A stretch of 64,000 nt of DNA from Parvularcula maris (GTDB lineage: Bacteria; Pseudomonadota; Alphaproteobacteria; Caulobacterales; Parvularculaceae): contig NZ_JANIBC010000002.1 of NCBI RefSeq assembly GCF_024505085.1, positions 363,016 through 427,015 of the forward strand, read 5' to 3'. Position 1 is the stretch's first letter; each line of letters opens with the position of its first letter. Under the pieces are notes generated by a model. It had not been told where the DNA came from. It saw only the letters and a program-made list of their open reading frames with translations, and ran no database searches. Below are positions 56,787 through 64,000 of this stretch, one piece after another. The translations under genes were made by a program, and so were the position numbers.

Positions 56787-59753
56787 ATGGCCATGCTACG
56801 CAAGACACTGATGATGACCGCGGCGAGCACCGTGCTGACGACGGGGGTCTCGTCTGCTCAAACGAGCAGCGGTGAGGAAGCCGTAGCTTTCAAACCCATG
56901 TTCGGGGACATCGTGGCTTTCCAGGGCGATATCCTTCCCTTCACCCGCATGACCAACTCGCTGACGGGGGACATCACTCCTTTTGCTGGCGACTTGGTTC
57001 CCTTTGCTGGAGATCTGGTCCCCTTCACGGGCGATCTCATCCCCTTCGCCGGCGACTTCCAGCCCTTTCACGGCGACTTCACCCCGTTCTACGGCGACAT
57101 CAGCCCCTTCTGGGGGGACATCACCCCGTTCTGGGGCGACATCATGCCCTTCCGCGGCGACACTTCGCTGAGCGGCGACATCGTTCCCTTCTGGGGCGAC
57201 CTCATCCCCTTCGCCGACGGCGACGTGGTCGAGGGCGGCCTCGGCAACTACTGGGCCGAGATCGGCCCGATGTGGGGCGACATCTACGCTTTCTGGGGCG
57301 ACACCGCCGAGGCCTCCTCGCCCGACTGGGAGAACGTCCGCGACGAGTTTGCGGGCCTCGTCTCCTTTAGCGCCGAGCGCTGGGGCACCGCCGTCGCTCA
57401 AGAGACCGGCAAGGACTTCTACCAGGGCTTCGCCAACGAGCTTCTCAGCGCCTTCGGCCTGGACCTCGACGACCCCGCCTCCTTCGCAGAGATGGACGCC
57501 GCCAGCCGCTCGGCCTTCTTCATGGCCTGGTATGACGGCCTCATGGCCTTCAGCGGGATCGACCAGATCGACCACTGGATGCCGCAGATAGGTTGGAGCC
57601 CGCTTCTGACCCAGGAGCAGGGCGCCGGGCGCGACGCCCGCGTCGGTCTGATCGACGCCTCGATCAGCCTGCAGGAGGACACGTTCGAGTACCTCGTCCA
57701 TGCCGGCGGGTACGAGGTCGAGACTACCGGTCACGGCGCCGCCGTCGCCAGCCTGATCGCCGCCCGCCACGATGGTCAGGGCACGATGGGCATCGCGCCG
57801 AACGCCACCGTCTACGCCTACAACCCCTTCGATGCGACGGGTACGGCAGACACGCCGGACATCGCCGATGCTGTCAGCACGCTCGCCGGTATGGGTGTCA
57901 GCGTCATCAACATGTCGCTCGGCGTTCCGGGTGCCACCTTCCACCAGGATCTGGCGGACGTGATGACCGATCCGGGCCTTCGCGCCTTTGCCAATGACGT
58001 TCTGGTGGTCACCGCCGCCGGTAACGAAGGCGCCGTGCAGACCACGGATGTTGTCTGGGGCCAGGGCGGTCTTCTGACCAGCAACCTGATCCTCGTCGGC
58101 TCGGTAGATGTCACCGGCCAGATCTCCAGCTTCTCCAACCGTCCGGGCGAGGCCTGCTTCGTCTCCGCAAGCGGCAACTGCGCCGAGGGCGACCGCCTGA
58201 TGGACCGCTTCCTGGTCGCTCCCGGCGAACTTCTTCTGGTGGCGGACAATCAGGGCGGCACCATGCGGGCCAGCGGCACGTCGTTTGCCGCGCCGCTCGT
58301 CACCGGCGCCATCTCGCTTCTCCACGACCGCTGGCCCTGGCTGCAGCAGCACCCCGAGGAGACGGCGGAGATCATTTTCGCCACCGCCCAGGACCTCGGC
58401 GAAGAAGGCGTCGACGCGGTCTACGGCCACGGTCTTCTCGATGTGGAGGCGTCCCAGTCGCCCATCGACTTCGCCGACCTCACCGTCTACGCAGGCAACA
58501 GTAACATCGCCTACCGCACCAGCATGGGCCGTGTGAAGGATGCCGTCCTCGATCCGGGTACGCTCGATCTTCTCGACAACGGCGGCTACTACCTCATCGC
58601 CTTCGAGAATGTCGGCGATACGAGCCGGGACTTCCGCGTACCGCTGAGCCAGATGCTGCACGGGGTGAACACCTCCCTGTTCGGCCGTGTCGAGACCTTC
58701 CAGCGCCACGTCGCCCGCAGGCTGATGGACTGGGCGCACACGACGAGCGCTGCGGGCTTCGCGCCGCAGACCCTGGCTGCCACCCGCGAGTGGAGCCTCA
58801 GCTTCACCCCCACCGGCACGGGTCAGGGCGAAGGCTTCATCCGCTTCCATTCGGAAGAAGACGGCCTGACCATGGTCGGCGGCCTCGGCACCGGGCTTCA
58901 CAATCTCAGCCAGGTCGAGGGCTTCACCGCCCCCGACGCCTTCGATCCGCGCCGCGGCGGCGCCAACCCGATGCTGGGTCTTGCCGCAGGCGGCAGCTTC
59001 GCTGCCGTCGCCAAGGAGCTGACGGGCAGCCTCAGCCTGACGGTCGGCTACGCAGGCACGCCGTTGGAGCAGGTGCAGCAGGACCTCTTCACCGGCGCGC
59101 CGATGAACGGTGAGCGGACCTTCGCGGTACAGAACAACGTCGCGGCCCACACCGAGCTCTCCTACGCTCCCAGCGAGCGCATGACCCTCGGTTTCGGCGT
59201 CACCGCGCTCAACGAAGGCGACAGCGTCCTCGGTGCCCAGGGCGGCGGCGCGCTCGCCGTCGGCGAGAGCACGAGCAGCGTCGGTCTGACCCTTTCGGGG
59301 CGCCTTGGCCTGACCGAGCGTCTCGGCCTCTCCGCCACGGCCACCGGCATGCGCGCGCTGGCCACCGACACGAACCAGGCGGGTCTGGGCGTCGCAGGCG
59401 GCGGCATCCTCGCCAGCTCCTTCCGCGTCGAGGCCAACATGACCTCGCTCCTCAAGGAAGGCGACCGCGTCACCCTCGCGGCCATCCAGCCCCTCAATGT
59501 CGAGGCCGGTGCGCTGAGCTTCAACCAGGCCCAGGTCACCGACCGCGAGACCGGCGAGCTCGGCATGGCGTCGAACGAGTGGGGCCTGTCCGGCGGACCG
59601 CGCCACCTCGCCTTCGAGAGCGCCTACGCCGCCTCGTTCAGGGACGACCGGATGCAGCTCTCCGCCTTCACCCGCTACGACCTTAACGATGTGGACATGA
59701 CAGGCAGGCACAATGCTCTGTCAGTGGGTGCGCGCCTGGCGTTCACCTACTGA
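56787..59753 (+). CDS. Secreted subtilisin-like (S8) autotransporter-type protease with GD-x-x-PF heptad repeats
   Basis: A 988-residue protein. A signal peptide (about 1-24) is followed by about fourteen repeats of the form (x)GD(I/L/F)xPF with strict seven-residue spacing from about G61 to G124 and looser copies at 40-55, 130-145 and 164-172. A subtilase domain (about 280-565) has D290 (VGLIDASIS), H316 (TTGHGAAVAS), N413 (AAGNEGA) and S499 (ASGTSFAAPLV). The last about 300 residues are glycine-rich amphipathic beta strands ending VGARLAFTY, as in outer-membrane barrels. The repeat block is unusual; I know of no assigned function. The kinase gene follows after 30 bases, so the two likely form an operon. 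Confidence 0.85.
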   Translation: MAMLRKTLMMTAASTVLTTGVSSAQTSSGEEAVAFKPMFGDIVAFQGDILPFTRMTNSLTGDITPFAGDLVPFAGDLVPFTGDLIPFAGDFQPFHGDFTPFYGDISPFWGDITPFWGDIMPFRGDTSLSGDIVPFWGDLIPFADGDVVEGGLGNYWAEIGPMWGDIYAFWGDTAEASSPDWENVRDEFAGLVSFSAERWGTAVAQETGKDFYQGFANELLSAFGLDLDDPASFAEMDAASRSAFFMAWYDGLMAFSGIDQIDHWMPQIGWSPLLTQEQGAGRDARVGLIDASISLQEDTFEYLVHAGGYEVETTGHGAAVASLIAARHDGQGTMGIAPNATVYAYNPFDATGTADTPDIADAVSTLAGMGVSVINMSLGVPGATFHQDLADVMTDPGLRAFANDVLVVTAAGNEGAVQTTDVVWGQGGLLTSNLILVGSVDVTGQISSFSNRPGEACFVSASGNCAEGDRLMDRFLVAPGELLLVADNQGGTMRASGTSFAAPLVTGAISLLHDRWPWLQQHPEETAEIIFATAQDLGEEGVDAVYGHGLLDVEASQSPIDFADLTVYAGNSNIAYRTSMGRVKDAVLDPGTLDLLDNGGYYLIAFENVGDTSRDFRVPLSQMLHGVNTSLFGRVETFQRHVARRLMDWAHTTSAAGFAPQTLAATREWSLSFTPTGTGQGEGFIRFHSEEDGLTMVGGLGTGLHNLSQVEGFTAPDAFDPRRGGANPMLGLAAGGSFAAVAKELTGSLSLTVGYAGTPLEQVQQDLFTGAPMNGERTFAVQNNVAAHTELSYAPSERMTLGFGVTALNEGDSVLGAQGGGALAVGESTSSVGLTLSGRLGLTERLGLSATATGMRALATDTNQAGLGVAGGGILASSFRVEANMTSLLKEGDRVTLAAIQPLNVEAGALSFNQAQVTDRETGELGMASNEWGLSGGPRHLAFESAYAASFRDDRMQLSAFTRYDLNDVDMTGRHNALSVGARLAFTY

Positions 59754-59783
59754 GCCTTGGGGAAGGGGCTGAAGGGGAACGCA

Positions 59784-62700
59784 GTGCACAAGCCGCGGCT
59801 TTCATCGCGAAACGGGGGCAGGCCATGGCGGTCTGCCTTCGGCCTGATCGCCCTTGGCATCTGCGCCGCCATCCAGCAGCCCGCCTGGGGCGCTGGGGAC
59901 AGCGCTAAGCCCGAAGCGGTAGAGGCGGCTGAGCCCGAAAACCCGTCGAGCCTTACCGGCAGCGGCGATCAGGGCGGCGGCAGCGCGCCGGAGCCGCAGG
60001 ACTATAAGGGCTTCGTCGAGCGGGCCAAAAGCGCCATGATGACCGCGCCCGAGGAGGCCTTCCAGGCCGCGGAGAAGAGCTACGCCCTCGCCGCTGCCGG
60101 GGCATCCGACCAGACCGAAGCCATGGCGACCTCCCTCTGGCTCAAGGCCGAAGCGGGTCTTCGCACCGGAAGGGGGGACGAGGCCGCCGAGGCTGCGCGC
60201 CTTGGCCTATCGCTCATAGAGGACCGCCCGGACCTCGCCCTTCTTGCCGCCGACCTCACCCTCGCCAGGGGCCGGATCGCCGGGCAGGACGGCGATATCG
60301 AGCTCGCCGTGCGCAGCTACCACGAGGCGTACGATCTCTATGTGACGCTGGGGAATGCCAGGAAGGAGAGCCTCACCCTTCAGTCCCTCGGCTCCGTCCA
60401 CCGCGATGCGGAGAGCTACGAGAAGGCGCTGGACTTCTTCAACCGTGCCAAGATGGTCTATGACGGCGACGACATCGTCCGCCTCTCCATCACCAACAAT
60501 GTCGGCAACATCCTCCGCGATACGGGGAAGTATGACGAGGCCATGGAGCGCTTCGACGAGGCCGTCGAGATCGCGACGGAGATGGGAAGCGACGTCCTCG
60601 TGGCAAGGGTTCTGACCAATGTCGCGCAGCTCGAACTGGAGCGCGGACGGCTGGATGCCATGGAGGAGGTCATCGAGCGCGCCGGCGCCCTCCTGCAGAC
60701 CGAAGAAGGCGCGCGCTGGCTGCGCTTCGTTCACGGGGCGGAGGCCGAACTCGCCCTTGCCAAGGGCGATACGGTGAGGGCGCTCAGCGCTCTCAAGCTC
60801 GGCTTCGAAGGCATCGACCCGACCACGACCACTATGGCCTTCCGCGAGATGCACCAAACGGCGGCCAACGCCTACGACCGCGCGGGTCTCTACCGGCTGG
60901 CCTTCGTTCACCTGACCCAGTTCAAGCGCCTTTCCGACGAGGCCAAGTCCCTCTCCACTTCGGCCAACCTCGCCCTTCTGGGTGCGGAGTTCCAGTTTGC
61001 CGAGCAGAAGCTCAACATCACTCGCCTGGAGAACCAGTCCCGCGTGACCATGGCCGAGCTCGACGCGGCCGAGGCCAAGCAGCGCTCCTTGCGCGCGATC
61101 ATCGTCAGCGGCGGACTGGTCCTCATGGTGGCGGGCGCCATGGGCTTCCTGACCATCCGCAACCAAGAGAAGATCAAGCGCATCAACGGCGATCTGTCCG
61201 AGACCGTCTCGAAGCTGAGCGAGGAGATCGGCGCCCGCGAGCAGGTCGAGAAGGACCTGATCGTGGCGCGCGACAAGGCCGAGGACGCCGACCGGATGAA
61301 GTCGGTCTTCCTCGCTACGATGAGCCATGAGCTCAGAACACCGATGAACGGCATTCTGGGCTTCACCGAGGTCCTCCTGTCCGGCGATCTGACCGAGGAG
61401 CAGCGCGAGCAGATCGAGATCATCGACCAGTCCTCCGGCTCGCTCCTGACGCTGATCAACGACATCCTCGATATCAGCCAGCTCGAGGCGGGCAAGTTCA
61501 AGCTGCGCGAGATGGATTTTGACCTCCGGGTCACCGCCTTCAACGCCGTCAAGCTGCTGCGAGCCAGGGCGCTCGAGAAGCACCTCTCCCTCATCGTCGA
61601 TGTGGAGGAGGACGTGCCCGCCCAGGTGCATGGCGACGAGGACCGGCTGCGCCAGATCATCCTCAACCTCGTCGGCAACGCGGTGAAGTTCACCGAGCAG
61701 GGCTGCGTCGTCCTCAGGGTGATGCGCGGCGATGCGCCCGGCGAGATACGCTTCGAGGTCCATGACAGCGGCATCGGCATCCCCCAGGACAAGATCGCGA
61801 CCCTCTTCGACCGCTTCTCCCAGGTGGACGGCAGCCATACCCGCAAGCATGCGGGATCGGGCCTCGGCCTCGCCATCTCCAAGGAGCTCAGCCACGCCAT
61901 GGGCGGCACCATCGCCTGCAGCTCCGAGCCGGGCGTGGGCAGCGTCTTCTCCTTCACGGCCCGGCTCATCCCCGAGGGTGCAGCGGCGAGCGAGCCGATC
62001 AAGCAGCGCTATGCGGGCCGCCAGGTCGCGCTTCTCGATCCCCTTCCCCTGCGCCGCGAGGCGATCGCCCGCATCGCCGCACGCAGCGGCGCCGAAGTGC
62101 TCCGCCTGCCCAAGCCCGCCGAGGTGGCGGGGGCGGATCTGGTGCTCGTAGGAGGCGACGGGACGAGCTGCGCCGCCAAGGACGCGGCGGTGGTTCGCCA
62201 GTCGGGAGCGGAGCCTGCCAAGGTGCTCGGCTACGGCCTGCAGGACAAGGCCGCCTCGGGCTCGATCGGCTCTATCCTCGACCCCATCATCACCAATCCG
62301 AGCCTCGGCAAGGCCATGAACGCTGTCCTCCTGGGTGAAGGAGAGGAACACAAAGAGCGTAAGACGGTCTCGGCCATGCGCTCGGGCAGCGCCAAGGCGA
62401 TGACCGAGGACCTGACCGGGCGCAAGGTGCTGATCGTGGACGACGTGGCCGCGAACAGGAAGCTGGTGGAGTGCATCCTCAAGCAGTTCGGGGTGGCTTG
62501 CGTTCTGGTCGAGAACGGCCAGGAGGCTGTGGAGGCCGCGCAGCACGAGAGCTTCGGGATCATCCTCATGGACGTCTTCATGCCCGTCATGGGCGGGCTG
62601 GAGGCGGCCCGCACCATCAAGCGCGGCGGCGGGCTGAACGCCAGCACGCCCATCTTCGCCCTCACCGCCTCCCCCTCGGCGAGCGAGCGGCAGGAGGCTC

Positions 62701-62822
62701 TCGACGCAGGCATGAACGGCGTCCTCACCAAGCCCATCGACGTCGCCAAGCTGCGCAAGGTGGTGGTGGATACGCTGACCGGGCGGCTCGACCCCGGCGC
62801 CCATCTGGCGGAAGAGGCCTAG
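59784..62822 (+). CDS. TPR-containing hybrid sensor histidine kinase
   Basis: A 1012-residue protein starting at GTG 59784, which has AAGGGGA upstream and gives a proper signal peptide. TTG 59757 is in frame but would lengthen the N-terminus without a ribosome binding site. A periplasmic TPR region (about 50-400) with repeats such as LQSLGSVHRDAESYEKALDF precedes a membrane segment (about 438-458), a coiled coil, HisKA with phospho-acceptor H515 (MSHELRTPMNG), the ATPase boxes LRQIILNLVGNAVKF and GSGLGLAISKEL, a degenerate receiver (about 745-850) and a C-terminal receiver with D930 (ILMDVFMPVMGG). The stop is close to lysS. Output is unknown as no separate regulator is adjacent. Confidence 0.92.
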   Translation: MHKPRLSSRNGGRPWRSAFGLIALGICAAIQQPAWGAGDSAKPEAVEAAEPENPSSLTGSGDQGGGSAPEPQDYKGFVERAKSAMMTAPEEAFQAAEKSYALAAAGASDQTEAMATSLWLKAEAGLRTGRGDEAAEAARLGLSLIEDRPDLALLAADLTLARGRIAGQDGDIELAVRSYHEAYDLYVTLGNARKESLTLQSLGSVHRDAESYEKALDFFNRAKMVYDGDDIVRLSITNNVGNILRDTGKYDEAMERFDEAVEIATEMGSDVLVARVLTNVAQLELERGRLDAMEEVIERAGALLQTEEGARWLRFVHGAEAELALAKGDTVRALSALKLGFEGIDPTTTTMAFREMHQTAANAYDRAGLYRLAFVHLTQFKRLSDEAKSLSTSANLALLGAEFQFAEQKLNITRLENQSRVTMAELDAAEAKQRSLRAIIVSGGLVLMVAGAMGFLTIRNQEKIKRINGDLSETVSKLSEEIGAREQVEKDLIVARDKAEDADRMKSVFLATMSHELRTPMNGILGFTEVLLSGDLTEEQREQIEIIDQSSGSLLTLINDILDISQLEAGKFKLREMDFDLRVTAFNAVKLLRARALEKHLSLIVDVEEDVPAQVHGDEDRLRQIILNLVGNAVKFTEQGCVVLRVMRGDAPGEIRFEVHDSGIGIPQDKIATLFDRFSQVDGSHTRKHAGSGLGLAISKELSHAMGGTIACSSEPGVGSVFSFTARLIPEGAAASEPIKQRYAGRQVALLDPLPLRREAIARIAARSGAEVLRLPKPAEVAGADLVLVGGDGTSCAAKDAAVVRQSGAEPAKVLGYGLQDKAASGSIGSILDPIITNPSLGKAMNAVLLGEGEEHKERKTVSAMRSGSAKAMTEDLTGRKVLIVDDVAANRKLVECILKQFGVACVLVENGQEAVEAAQHESFGIILMDVFMPVMGGLEAARTIKRGGGLNASTPIFALTASPSASERQEALDAGMNGVLTKPIDVAKLRKVVVDTLTGRLDPGAHLAEEA

Positions 62823-62874: not shown

Positions 62875-64000
62875 ATGAGCAACCACATCCTTCCGCCCGA
62901 CATCCTGGAGAACGCGAAAGCCTGGCCTATCCAAGAGGCCAAGGCCCTGAAGAAGCGCCTGGACAAGACGGCCAAGAAGGACGGCCTCGTCACCTTCGAG
63001 ACCGGCTACGGCCCCTCCGGCCCGCCCCATATCGGCACCTTCGGCGAGGTGGCGCGGACCTCCTTCGTGCGCCATGCCTTCAGTGCGCTTTACCCGGATT
63101 ATGAGACGCGGATCCTCTCGGTCTCGGACGATATGGATGGTATGCGGAAGCTTCCTCCTGTTCCAGGTGCTGACGCGCTCGAGCCCTATCTGCAGCAGCC
63201 CCTTTCCCGCGTGCCCGATCCGGCAGGCGAGGCTGAGAGCTTTGCCGGGGCCAACAACGCAAAGTTGCAGGCCTTTCTCGACCGCTTCGGCTTCGATTAC
63301 GAGTTCATCTCAGCGAGCGATGCTTACAATTCAGGCCGCAAGGACGGCGCGCTGATCCGTATGCTGGAAGTCTATGACGAGGTCATGGACATCATCCTAC
63401 CGACCTTGGGTGAGGAGCGGCGGGCGACGTATTCTCCGATCCTGCCCATCAGTCCGGATAGCGGGCGGGTTCTTTACGTTCCGCTCCTCGAACGAGACGC
63501 GGCTTCGGGCACGATCGTCTATGAGGACGAGGACGGCACGCGCCGCGAGCAGAAGGTCACTAGAGGACAGGCGAAGCTTCAGTGGAAAGCCGACTGGGCC
63601 GGGCACTGGTATGCTTTCGATACGGATTATGAGATGTCCGGCGAGGACCTGACCGAGAGCGTGCGGCTGTCCCGCCGGATCATCCAAGCCATGGGTAAGG
63701 AGCCGCCCGTGGGCTTCAACTACCAGCTCTTCCTGGACGAAGAGGGCAAGAAGATCTCCAAGACCAAGGGCAACGGCCTGACGATCGAGGAGTGGCTACG
63801 CTATGCCTCGCCCGCGAGCCTGCAGCTCTTCAACTTCTCAGCGCCGAAGAAGGCCAAGAAGCTCTATTTCGACATCATCCCGAAGACGGCGGACGAGTAC
63901 TGGTCCCATGTGGAGAAGTTCGCGGACCAGGAAGATGCGAAGCGTGCGGACAACCCAGCCTTCTTCATCCACCAGGGCGATGTCCCTTCCGTCACCCCGC
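62875..64000 (+). CDS. lysS: Class I lysyl-tRNA synthetase, 3' truncated by the window
   Basis: The frame is open from ATG 62875 (MSNHILPPDILENAKAWP) to the end of the window, about 375 codons. The class I HIGH-like motif is PPHIGTFGEV and the KMSKS-like motif KKISKTKGNG, with DGMRKLPPVP and LIRMLEVYDEVMDIILP typical of archaeal and alphaproteobacterial LysRS1. It charges tRNA-Lys with a class I fold unrelated to the common class II enzyme. The remainder (alpha-helix cage) is beyond the window. Confidence 0.95.
   Translation, partial: MSNHILPPDILENAKAWPIQEAKALKKRLDKTAKKDGLVTFETGYGPSGPPHIGTFGEVARTSFVRHAFSALYPDYETRILSVSDDMDGMRKLPPVPGADALEPYLQQPLSRVPDPAGEAESFAGANNAKLQAFLDRFGFDYEFISASDAYNSGRKDGALIRMLEVYDEVMDIILPTLGEERRATYSPILPISPDSGRVLYVPLLERDAASGTIVYEDEDGTRREQKVTRGQAKLQWKADWAGHWYAFDTDYEMSGEDLTESVRLSRRIIQAMGKEPPVGFNYQLFLDEEGKKISKTKGNGLTIEEWLRYASPASLQLFNFSAPKKAKKLYFDIIPKTADEYWSHVEKFADQEDAKRADNPAFFIHQGDVPSVTP

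Follow-up and report, generated by a model that had tools for sequence, protein, structure and literature searches.

Results

A heptad array precedes the protease domain of a subtilase

The stretch of Parvularcula maris DNA analysed here (64,000 nucleotides, contig NZ_JANIBC010000002.1, positions 363,016 to 427,015 of the forward strand; hereafter the window) carries a subtilase gene of peptidase family S8 whose N-terminal part encodes many copies of a seven-residue unit, followed by the gene of a signal transducer with a tetratricopeptide repeat (TPR) domain (Table 1). A signal peptide was judged by eye to occupy approximately residues 1-25 of the protease, and the catalytic residues as well as the profile match place the protein in family S8. 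The exact motif GDxxPF occurs 12 times, starting at residues 47, 61, 68, 75, 82, 89, 96, 103, 110, 117, 130 and 137, and is joined by two GDIxAF units (GDIVAF at residue 40 and GDIYAF at residue 164) to give a total of 14. In 5000 shuffles of residues 36-175 GDxxPF was never found more than twice (mean 0.03), confirming the block of about 14 units that the original prediction had described. That prediction placed ten units in exact register; the register is indeed strict, with an unbroken step of seven over nine units (residues 61-117), and is common to 11 units rather than ten.

The DNA 21-mers encoding the 12 GDxxPF units are all distinct and differ pairwise by 0.30, 0.19 and 0.48 at codon positions 1, 2 and 3, respectively, which bears out the earlier proposal that the repeats are diverged at third positions and maintained at the protein level. 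One preferred codon each for G, D, P and F is retained in 9 of the 12 units. A Pfam scan of the protease (E ≤ 1) yielded PF00082 as the sole match and no model covered the array, in line with the earlier view of a block without known function. NCBIfam matched the protease part with S8 models only, all of them scoring under their cut-offs, and neither array nor linker domain has a name in Pfam; each of the 13 linker domains scanned lacked a Pfam match (E ≤ 0.1).

Table 1. Location of the array subtilase, the TPR transducer and their parts in the window.
Feature	Position	Strand	Evidence or remark
Secreted S8 subtilase gene with N-terminal heptad array, 988 residues	56787..59753	+	Open reading frame and translation; PF00082, E 1.1e-33
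Heptad array, 14 units (x)GD-hydrophobic-x-P/A-F; proposed multi-copy peptide ligand	56904..57296	+	Translation, motif count
Linker domain, marker DxxDHWMxxxxWxPxL, ~83 residues	57369..57617	+	Family alignment; signature used in searches
S8 catalytic domain	57654..58433	+	PF00082; Asp290, His316, Asn413 and Ser499 invariant in 16/16 aligned family members
C-terminal domain, aromatic last residue (last ~330 residues)	58761..59750	+	Autotransporter-like beta-barrel suspected
TPR transducer: N-terminal signal/anchor (by eye), TPR domain, transmembrane segment (residues 444-468), HisKA, HATPase_c, receiver	59757..62822	+	Pfam, hydropathy
TPR domain (residues 85-440), proposed heptad receptor	60009..61076	+	TPR models, covariation
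Ser213, helix A position 9	60393..60395	+	Covaries with unit position 3
Ser244, helix A position 2	60486..60488	+	Covaries with unit position 4
Asn251, helix A position 9	60507..60509	+	Covaries with unit position 3

The array subtilase is paired with a TPR transducer

Among 94 S8 open reading frames (ORFs) of the family with at least 600 residues, 79 are followed within 1 kb and on the same strand by a TPR gene, and four end at a contig edge. The remaining 11 ORFs include that of L107, with a TPR gene just upstream, one of L136, where a second S8 gene lies in between, and four loci (L143, L147, L148 and L156) with another or an overlapping arrangement. A search of 81 genomes from the receptor side returned 22 matches, 21 of them strong, of which 20 adjoin a family S8 gene and one lies at a contig end; the much weaker match, in G029, has no family S8 neighbour within 11.5 kb.

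TPR models matched all 36 transducers scanned, 28 of which contain HisKA and HATPase_c and eight an EAL domain; a receiver is also present in 19 of the 36. By a crude hydropathy rule, 55 of 82 family members possess an N-terminal hydrophobic segment plus a second one starting at residues 330-560, and the window transducer shows the second segment only. The position of the transmembrane segment would put the TPR domain on the periplasmic side.

Searches with a profile of the linker domain, in genome samples that overlap, were positive for 41 of the 299 genomes from the order to which the window genome belongs. Positive genomes numbered 12 of 62 in the window's own family, 27 of 137 and 13 of 105 in two other families of that order, and 25 of 347 in another family of the same class. 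A class-wide sample gave 4 of 385 genomes, two of the four being from the window's order, the window genome included. The relative L003 stems from an uncultured Erythrobacter, also an alphaproteobacterium. The window genome holds a second family copy, L069 (3580-7635), whose unit is EMHLDPL instead of GDxxPF and of whose matched units 44 of 46 are identical; this paralogue has its own TPR transducer downstream, and some of its spacers are like those of L071 and L073, with different unit letters.

The unit is conserved in sequence, not in geometry

Relatives retain the unit length of seven and vary its letters, as in WGNLDTF, WGNLDSF, WGSLDTF, WGDLESF, YGNLDAF, YGSLDPF, YGRINPF, WGDIQPF and WGEINPF, and further in SLHIDPL, DLHIDPL, YRNIGAF, YGNVRSF, VGHIRTF, TGYIRAF, TGFIRAF, KGRIRIF, WGSIDPI and others. 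Within single arrays the unit may be uniform: all 32 matched DLHIDPL units of L071 are encoded by 23 different DNA 21-mers, and all 27 WGNLDSF units of L100 by 20. For L071 and L073 the unit itself served as the search pattern of these counts, and these arrays also contain decayed units, ALHLDVL for instance. L073 illustrates an evolutionary puzzle, with 34 of 34 matched SLHIDPL units identical in protein and 31 different 21-mers in DNA, while related arrays have other letters in nearly every unit. In L099, L100 and L109, too, the units of an array are uniform as protein despite strong synonymous divergence, and close relatives nevertheless carry different letters throughout. Positions 1 and 5 vary inside other arrays, that of the window included.

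As the earlier regular expressions had partly fixed unit positions 2, 4, 6 and 7, units were recounted with an anchor on positions 2 and 3 and on spacing (Gly second, any polar residue third, at least three units in a row at spacing 7). Of the 94 proteins, 79 yielded a total of 1092 units. Position 4 was I, L, V, F or M in 1047 of these, position 6 was P, A, S or T in 1063, and position 7 was F, L, W, M, Y or I in 1023, with Phe in 979. Subtilisins as a general rule display a preference for substrate residues P4 to P1. The unit end, Ile/Leu-x-Pro/Ala/Ser/Thr-Phe, fits the P4, P2 and P1 preferences of such enzymes, for which passages of PMC3168465 give AAPF and FAAF peptides as standard substrates and an S4 pocket that can favour a bulky residue.

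The period of seven is kept in most relatives, as the original prediction would have it. Units of L133 (WRDIEAF) stand mostly at a period of nine with two residues in between, those of L151, L155 and L103 alternate with seven-residue spacers that are decayed units, and 12-33 residues separate the units of L069, L071 and L073. Among arrays not cut by a contig end, size ranges from about five units (L104) to about 50 (L069). Because of the period of nine and the spacers of 7 or 12-33 residues, the sequence of the unit rather than a strict geometry is the feature that is kept; the seven-residue step being no fixed geometry, the stacked or beta-helical scaffold, or polymerizing propeptide, that had been proposed from the window alone finds no support.

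Unit and TPR groove covary

Unit and receptor were compared by partial Mantel tests on the first 49 loci (48 with a C-terminal domain) and by tests on the S8 tree with 82 loci. Of the 94 S8 ORFs, 12 had been excluded prior to pairing, namely L070, with no array in its longer piece, and 11 that lacked a TPR ORF of 550 residues or more. With the S8 distance controlled, the unit distance of the 49 loci correlated with TPR residues 195-250 (r 0.40, 0/500 permutations) and, elsewhere, with residues 85-140 (3/500) and 305-360 (4/500); residues 140-195 and 250-305 did not reach this level, and no signal was obtained at residues 360-740. When groups of loci were dropped, the partial r at residues 195-250 was 0.40, 0.45 and 0.32 with 48, 45 and 38 loci, respectively (each 0/400), and residues 515-740 of the kinase were uncorrelated with unit distance in the same sets (-0.13 to -0.20).

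At single residues a set of pairing rules emerged, in counts over 81 scored loci of the 82 that are not independent of one another. Where unit position 3 is Asp, the receptor has Ser213 in 43 of 44 loci and Asn251 in 44 of 44, as compared with 9 and 18, respectively, of the 37 loci with another residue at this position. Leu at position 4 is paired with Val or Phe244 in 10 of 11 loci, and Ile or Val with Ser, Ala, Thr or Gly244 in 70 of 70. An acidic residue 251 is found in six of eight loci with Arg at position 5 versus four of the 73 others, a rule seen only in the later-added loci. The TPR sites had been chosen on the 49 loci and were re-tested on 33 added later (32 scored), in which position 3 Asp was again accompanied by Ser213 and by Asn251 in 14 of 14 loci at both sites, versus 6 (p 1e-4) and 5 (p 3e-5), respectively, of the 18 loci with non-Asp units.

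Changes mapped on the S8 tree of the 82 loci gave 213 and 251 as the top columns for position 3, with eight co-changes each where 3.0 were expected (z 2.94), and 244 as the top column for position 4, with five of six changes where 1.0 was expected (z 4.18). Residues 94 and 286 gave z values of 4.73 and 4.0 for unit position 2, which has four changes only. In passages of PMC1261162, TPR positions 2, 5, 9, 12, 13, 33 and 34 make up the concave and most variable face, and positions 2, 5, 6, 9, 12 and 13 contact the peptide in the HOP TPR. Residues 213, 251 and 244, at helix-A positions 9, 9 and 2, all map by sequence to this canonical peptide-binding face, which compared with the other TPR positions is enriched in co-changes for unit positions 3 (p 0.005) and 4 (p 0.004). 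Of the 81 scored loci, 80 retain Asn248 (helix-A position 6), and part of PMC3601957 reports that recognition of the peptide backbone by Asn is conserved among TPR domains. The co-evolution of unit and adjacent TPR sensor is an aspect outside the original prediction.

The covariation is equally compatible with an array that stays uncleaved and docks the secreted protease multivalently on a periplasmic TPR sensor, whose kinase would then monitor the export or folding of this protease and not a free peptide; a TPR groove can hold an extended chain, to which the varying spacer lengths (2, 7 or 12-33 residues) would make no difference. Such docking, however, leaves unexplained both the match of the unit end to subtilisin P4-P1 and the up to about 50 letter-preserving copies of one unit, and we consider it rather unlikely.

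Array and receptor half are replaced together

The sister genomes of L099 and L109 have S8 proteins that are 98% identical over the last 427 aligned codons, whereas every full unit is WGNLDTF in one and WGNLDSF in the other. Their DNA, aligned over 7.7 kb and compared in segments of 150 bases, shows differences of 0.01-0.14 outside two blocks, namely the array (0.15-0.24) and some 600-750 bases of the TPR gene past the signal region (0.28-0.39, then 0.15). The synonymous codon difference is 0.52-0.63 in TPR columns 50-245 versus 0.07-0.23 in the rest of the gene, and the third-position difference is 0.435 in the array versus 0.178 over the last 427 aligned S8 codons. Given this raised synonymous and third-position divergence, a diverged source seems to have supplied both the array and the N-terminal TPR half. 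Between L100 and L109, which share the unit, neither the array nor the TPR block is diverged. Hypermutation of the array was considered for L099 and L100, whose arrays differ at 0.55 of third positions, and set aside because L100 and L109, with the unit shared, differ about equally in the array (0.24) and outside (0.20); import of a diverged segment fits better. A third diverged block (0.36-0.41), in L100 only, covers the last ~400 bases of the TPR-kinase gene, away from the array and the TPR domain.

A second such case is the pair L097 and L098 (WGEINPF and WGDIQPF), with identities of 84% in S8, 80% in the kinase and only 35% in TPR residues 85-270. Two further pairs tend in this direction, the corresponding S8, kinase and TPR values being 90, 89 and 69% for L155 and L159 and 80, 70 and 47% for L113 and L111. 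Across 34 disjoint sister pairs, with matches judged on unit positions 2-7, the median of TPR minus kinase identity was +0.02 where the units match (15 pairs) and -0.07 where they differ (19 pairs; one-sided p=0.0013).

An array acting as a structural stalk, a solenoid or a pseudo-substrate propeptide, and tied to the TPR covariation only indirectly, would agree with its location, which is that of subtilase propeptides, and with the exact seven-residue spacing of many arrays, decayed units included. We nevertheless regard such a role as improbable in view of the period of nine and the long spacers, the concentration of covariation at the TPR groove with little at the C-terminal domain, and the replacement of the array together with the receptor half. 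Units that are homogeneous within a genome and switched between genomes also resemble recognition alleles, so that arrays on adjacent cells might recognize one another or some partner, with the TPR kinase signalling the contact; this we hold to be very improbable, as the topology would confine the TPR domain to the periplasm and no sign of array-array binding is present in these data.

A possible export domain and further features of the loci

The C-terminal domain of the protease is suspected to be an autotransporter-like beta-barrel through which export may occur. Its last residue is F or Y in 36 of 40 listed relatives, the exceptions being L088 and L106 (both at a contig end) and L107 and L108 (both with an early end). 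The PF03797 autotransporter barrel matched neither the window protein (E ≤ 1) nor any of 28 C-terminal domains (E ≤ 0.1), comparison with the PDB gave no match to a solved barrel, and sub-threshold Pfam barrel matches among the 28 domains were of the TonB type (2), OMP_b-brl (2) and PagL (1), with a best E of 0.035. AlphaFold, run on alignments of two sequences (window and L003), returned a mean confidence score (pLDDT) of 30.9 for the near-full protein and 29.8 for the array, with values below 50 everywhere, even in the S8 domain.

The array subtilases of L107 and L108 (G615) stop shortly past the catalytic domain and are devoid of the C-terminal domain. Two array proteases look broken, L103 by frameshifts and L070 by a stop, and the L103 stretch has no detected TPR gene. 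L136 (G798) has a tandem pair of array proteases that share the unusual unit WGSIDPI ahead of one TPR gene. Draft contigs end beside or inside the genes of L162 and L163, so that arrays are probably under-counted. Downstream of the sensor gene of the window, an ORF at 62875-63999 resembles by eye a class I lysyl-tRNA synthetase. PADLOC matched a generic subtilase model and, weakly, IetS, TPR and PD-T4-6 models, none of which makes membership in a defence system convincing.

Discussion

Conservation of the unit, pairing of the two genes, co-evolution at the groove and joint replacement of array and receptor half are all evident at the level of sequence, and a ligand-receptor coupling of unit and TPR domain is well supported by them. 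The array would then probably be a tandem multi-copy precursor of a short peptide signal that is read by the neighbouring TPR transducer. According to this model, the array protein would be exported from the cell, and its own subtilase domain, or another protease, would cut past the Phe or Leu closing each unit and free heptapeptides such as WGDITPF; the subtilisin-like unit end and the subtilase in the same protein suggest release by the fused protease. The neighbouring membrane protein would bind the unit in its TPR groove, reading at least positions 3 and 4, and hand the signal to the histidine kinase and receiver, an EAL domain taking their place in other genomes. Position 1 varies within many arrays and shows no coupling, which suits an unread residue. 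Every lineage would thus have its own unit, or 'pherotype', and a matching receptor. We infer direct binding, the cleavage sites, the free peptide as the active form, the export route and a function between cells from these patterns. We see about an even chance that many genera of Gram-negative, probably alphaproteobacterial, bacteria share a pheromone system with a self-cleaving poly-heptapeptide precursor, membrane TPR kinases or EAL proteins as readers and dozens of pherotypes matchable by sequence.

Several observations weigh against the model. For five S8 loci (L094, L108, L134, L139 and L144) the retrieved stretch contains no TPR gene. Unit distance showed partial correlations of -0.05, 0.03 and 0.19 with the C-terminal domain at 48, 45 and 38 loci, the last being a weak correlation in the smallest set (22/400). 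The z of 2.94 for position 3 is within the chance maximum of about 620 columns, so that the covariation case would rest on the groove location of the top columns and on the later loci, not on single-column z values; none of the later loci has Leu at position 4, and the Leu/244 rule therefore rests on the first 49. Co-change on the face was not significant for unit positions 1, 2, 5 and 6 (p 0.49, 0.12, 0.61 and 0.09). Exceptions to the pairing rules include, at residue 213, L113 (Asp with D213), L105 (Arg with S213) and L104, L141, L152, L154 and L160 (Asn with S213); at residue 244, L069 (Leu with A244); and at residue 251, L138 (Thr with N251), L148 (E251 without Arg at position 5) and the pair L146 and L153 (Asn with D251). 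Cuts after the unit-final Phe would yield 14-mers in L151, L155 and L103 and 9-mers in L133. Finally, binding, cleavage and secretion are themselves deduced from sequence.

A description of an array-subtilase/TPR system was not found in searches of the open-licence literature. Receptors of the RRNPP (or RNPP) type, such as those of Rap-Phr, PlcR-PapR, NprR and PrgX, are intracellular proteins of Gram-positive bacteria, and their peptides come from small precursors. As portrayed in excerpts of PMC3601957, they read short linear peptides in the concave groove of a TPR domain and hold the backbone by a conserved Asn, and their ligands include heptapeptides, e.g. PapR ADLPFEF (in part of PMC5007282), the unit proposed here being of seven residues as well. 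TPR models were found in 36 of 36 transducers, and the covariation at helix-A positions 2 and 9 may point to a groove that sets specificity. Unlike in RRNPP systems, the peptides proposed here would come from a tandem array joined to a subtilase, and in place of a cytoplasmic receptor with a helix-turn-helix or a response-regulator-binding N-domain there is an apparently periplasmic TPR domain on a membrane protein (transmembrane segment 444-468) with HisKA and HATPase_c (28/36) or EAL (8/36).

In agr and ComQXPA systems, precursor and sensor part of the receptor switch jointly between strains and the remainder is conserved. The loci described here are alike in that precursor and receptor sensor region vary jointly on a conserved background, and unlike in their linear repeated units and TPR sensor. 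No AgrB- or ComQ-type maturation enzyme was present among five window proteins scanned, the neighbours elsewhere having been compared with S8 and TPR queries only. As RNPP membership fails on the membrane kinase or EAL protein and the putative periplasmic TPR domain, and as no agr-type enzyme was seen in the five proteins, our hypothesis is that this peptide-signalling system is categorically new.

The precursor shares with subtilase autotransporters (SphB1 and Ssp, in the extracts describing them) a secreted S8 protease and a C-terminal domain that is possibly a barrel, and differs from them by the additional array and linker domain and by the lack of a PF03797 match. Yeast alpha-factor type precursors carry many near-identical copies of a short signal per secreted precursor; here, in contrast, dibasic spacers are missing and the protease is within the same polypeptide. 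Should the model hold, precursor, processing enzyme and receptor of a peptide language feeding phosphorelays and EAL (c-di-GMP) outputs would be contained in two adjacent genes, and the pairing of unit and receptor by sequence in 82 loci makes its specificity directly testable by means of synthetic heptapeptides. In the review of PMC5007282, as far as its excerpt goes, oligopeptides are the signals of Gram-positive quorum sensing and small molecules those of Gram-negative bacteria, to which a linear-peptide language in Gram-negatives would then have to be added.

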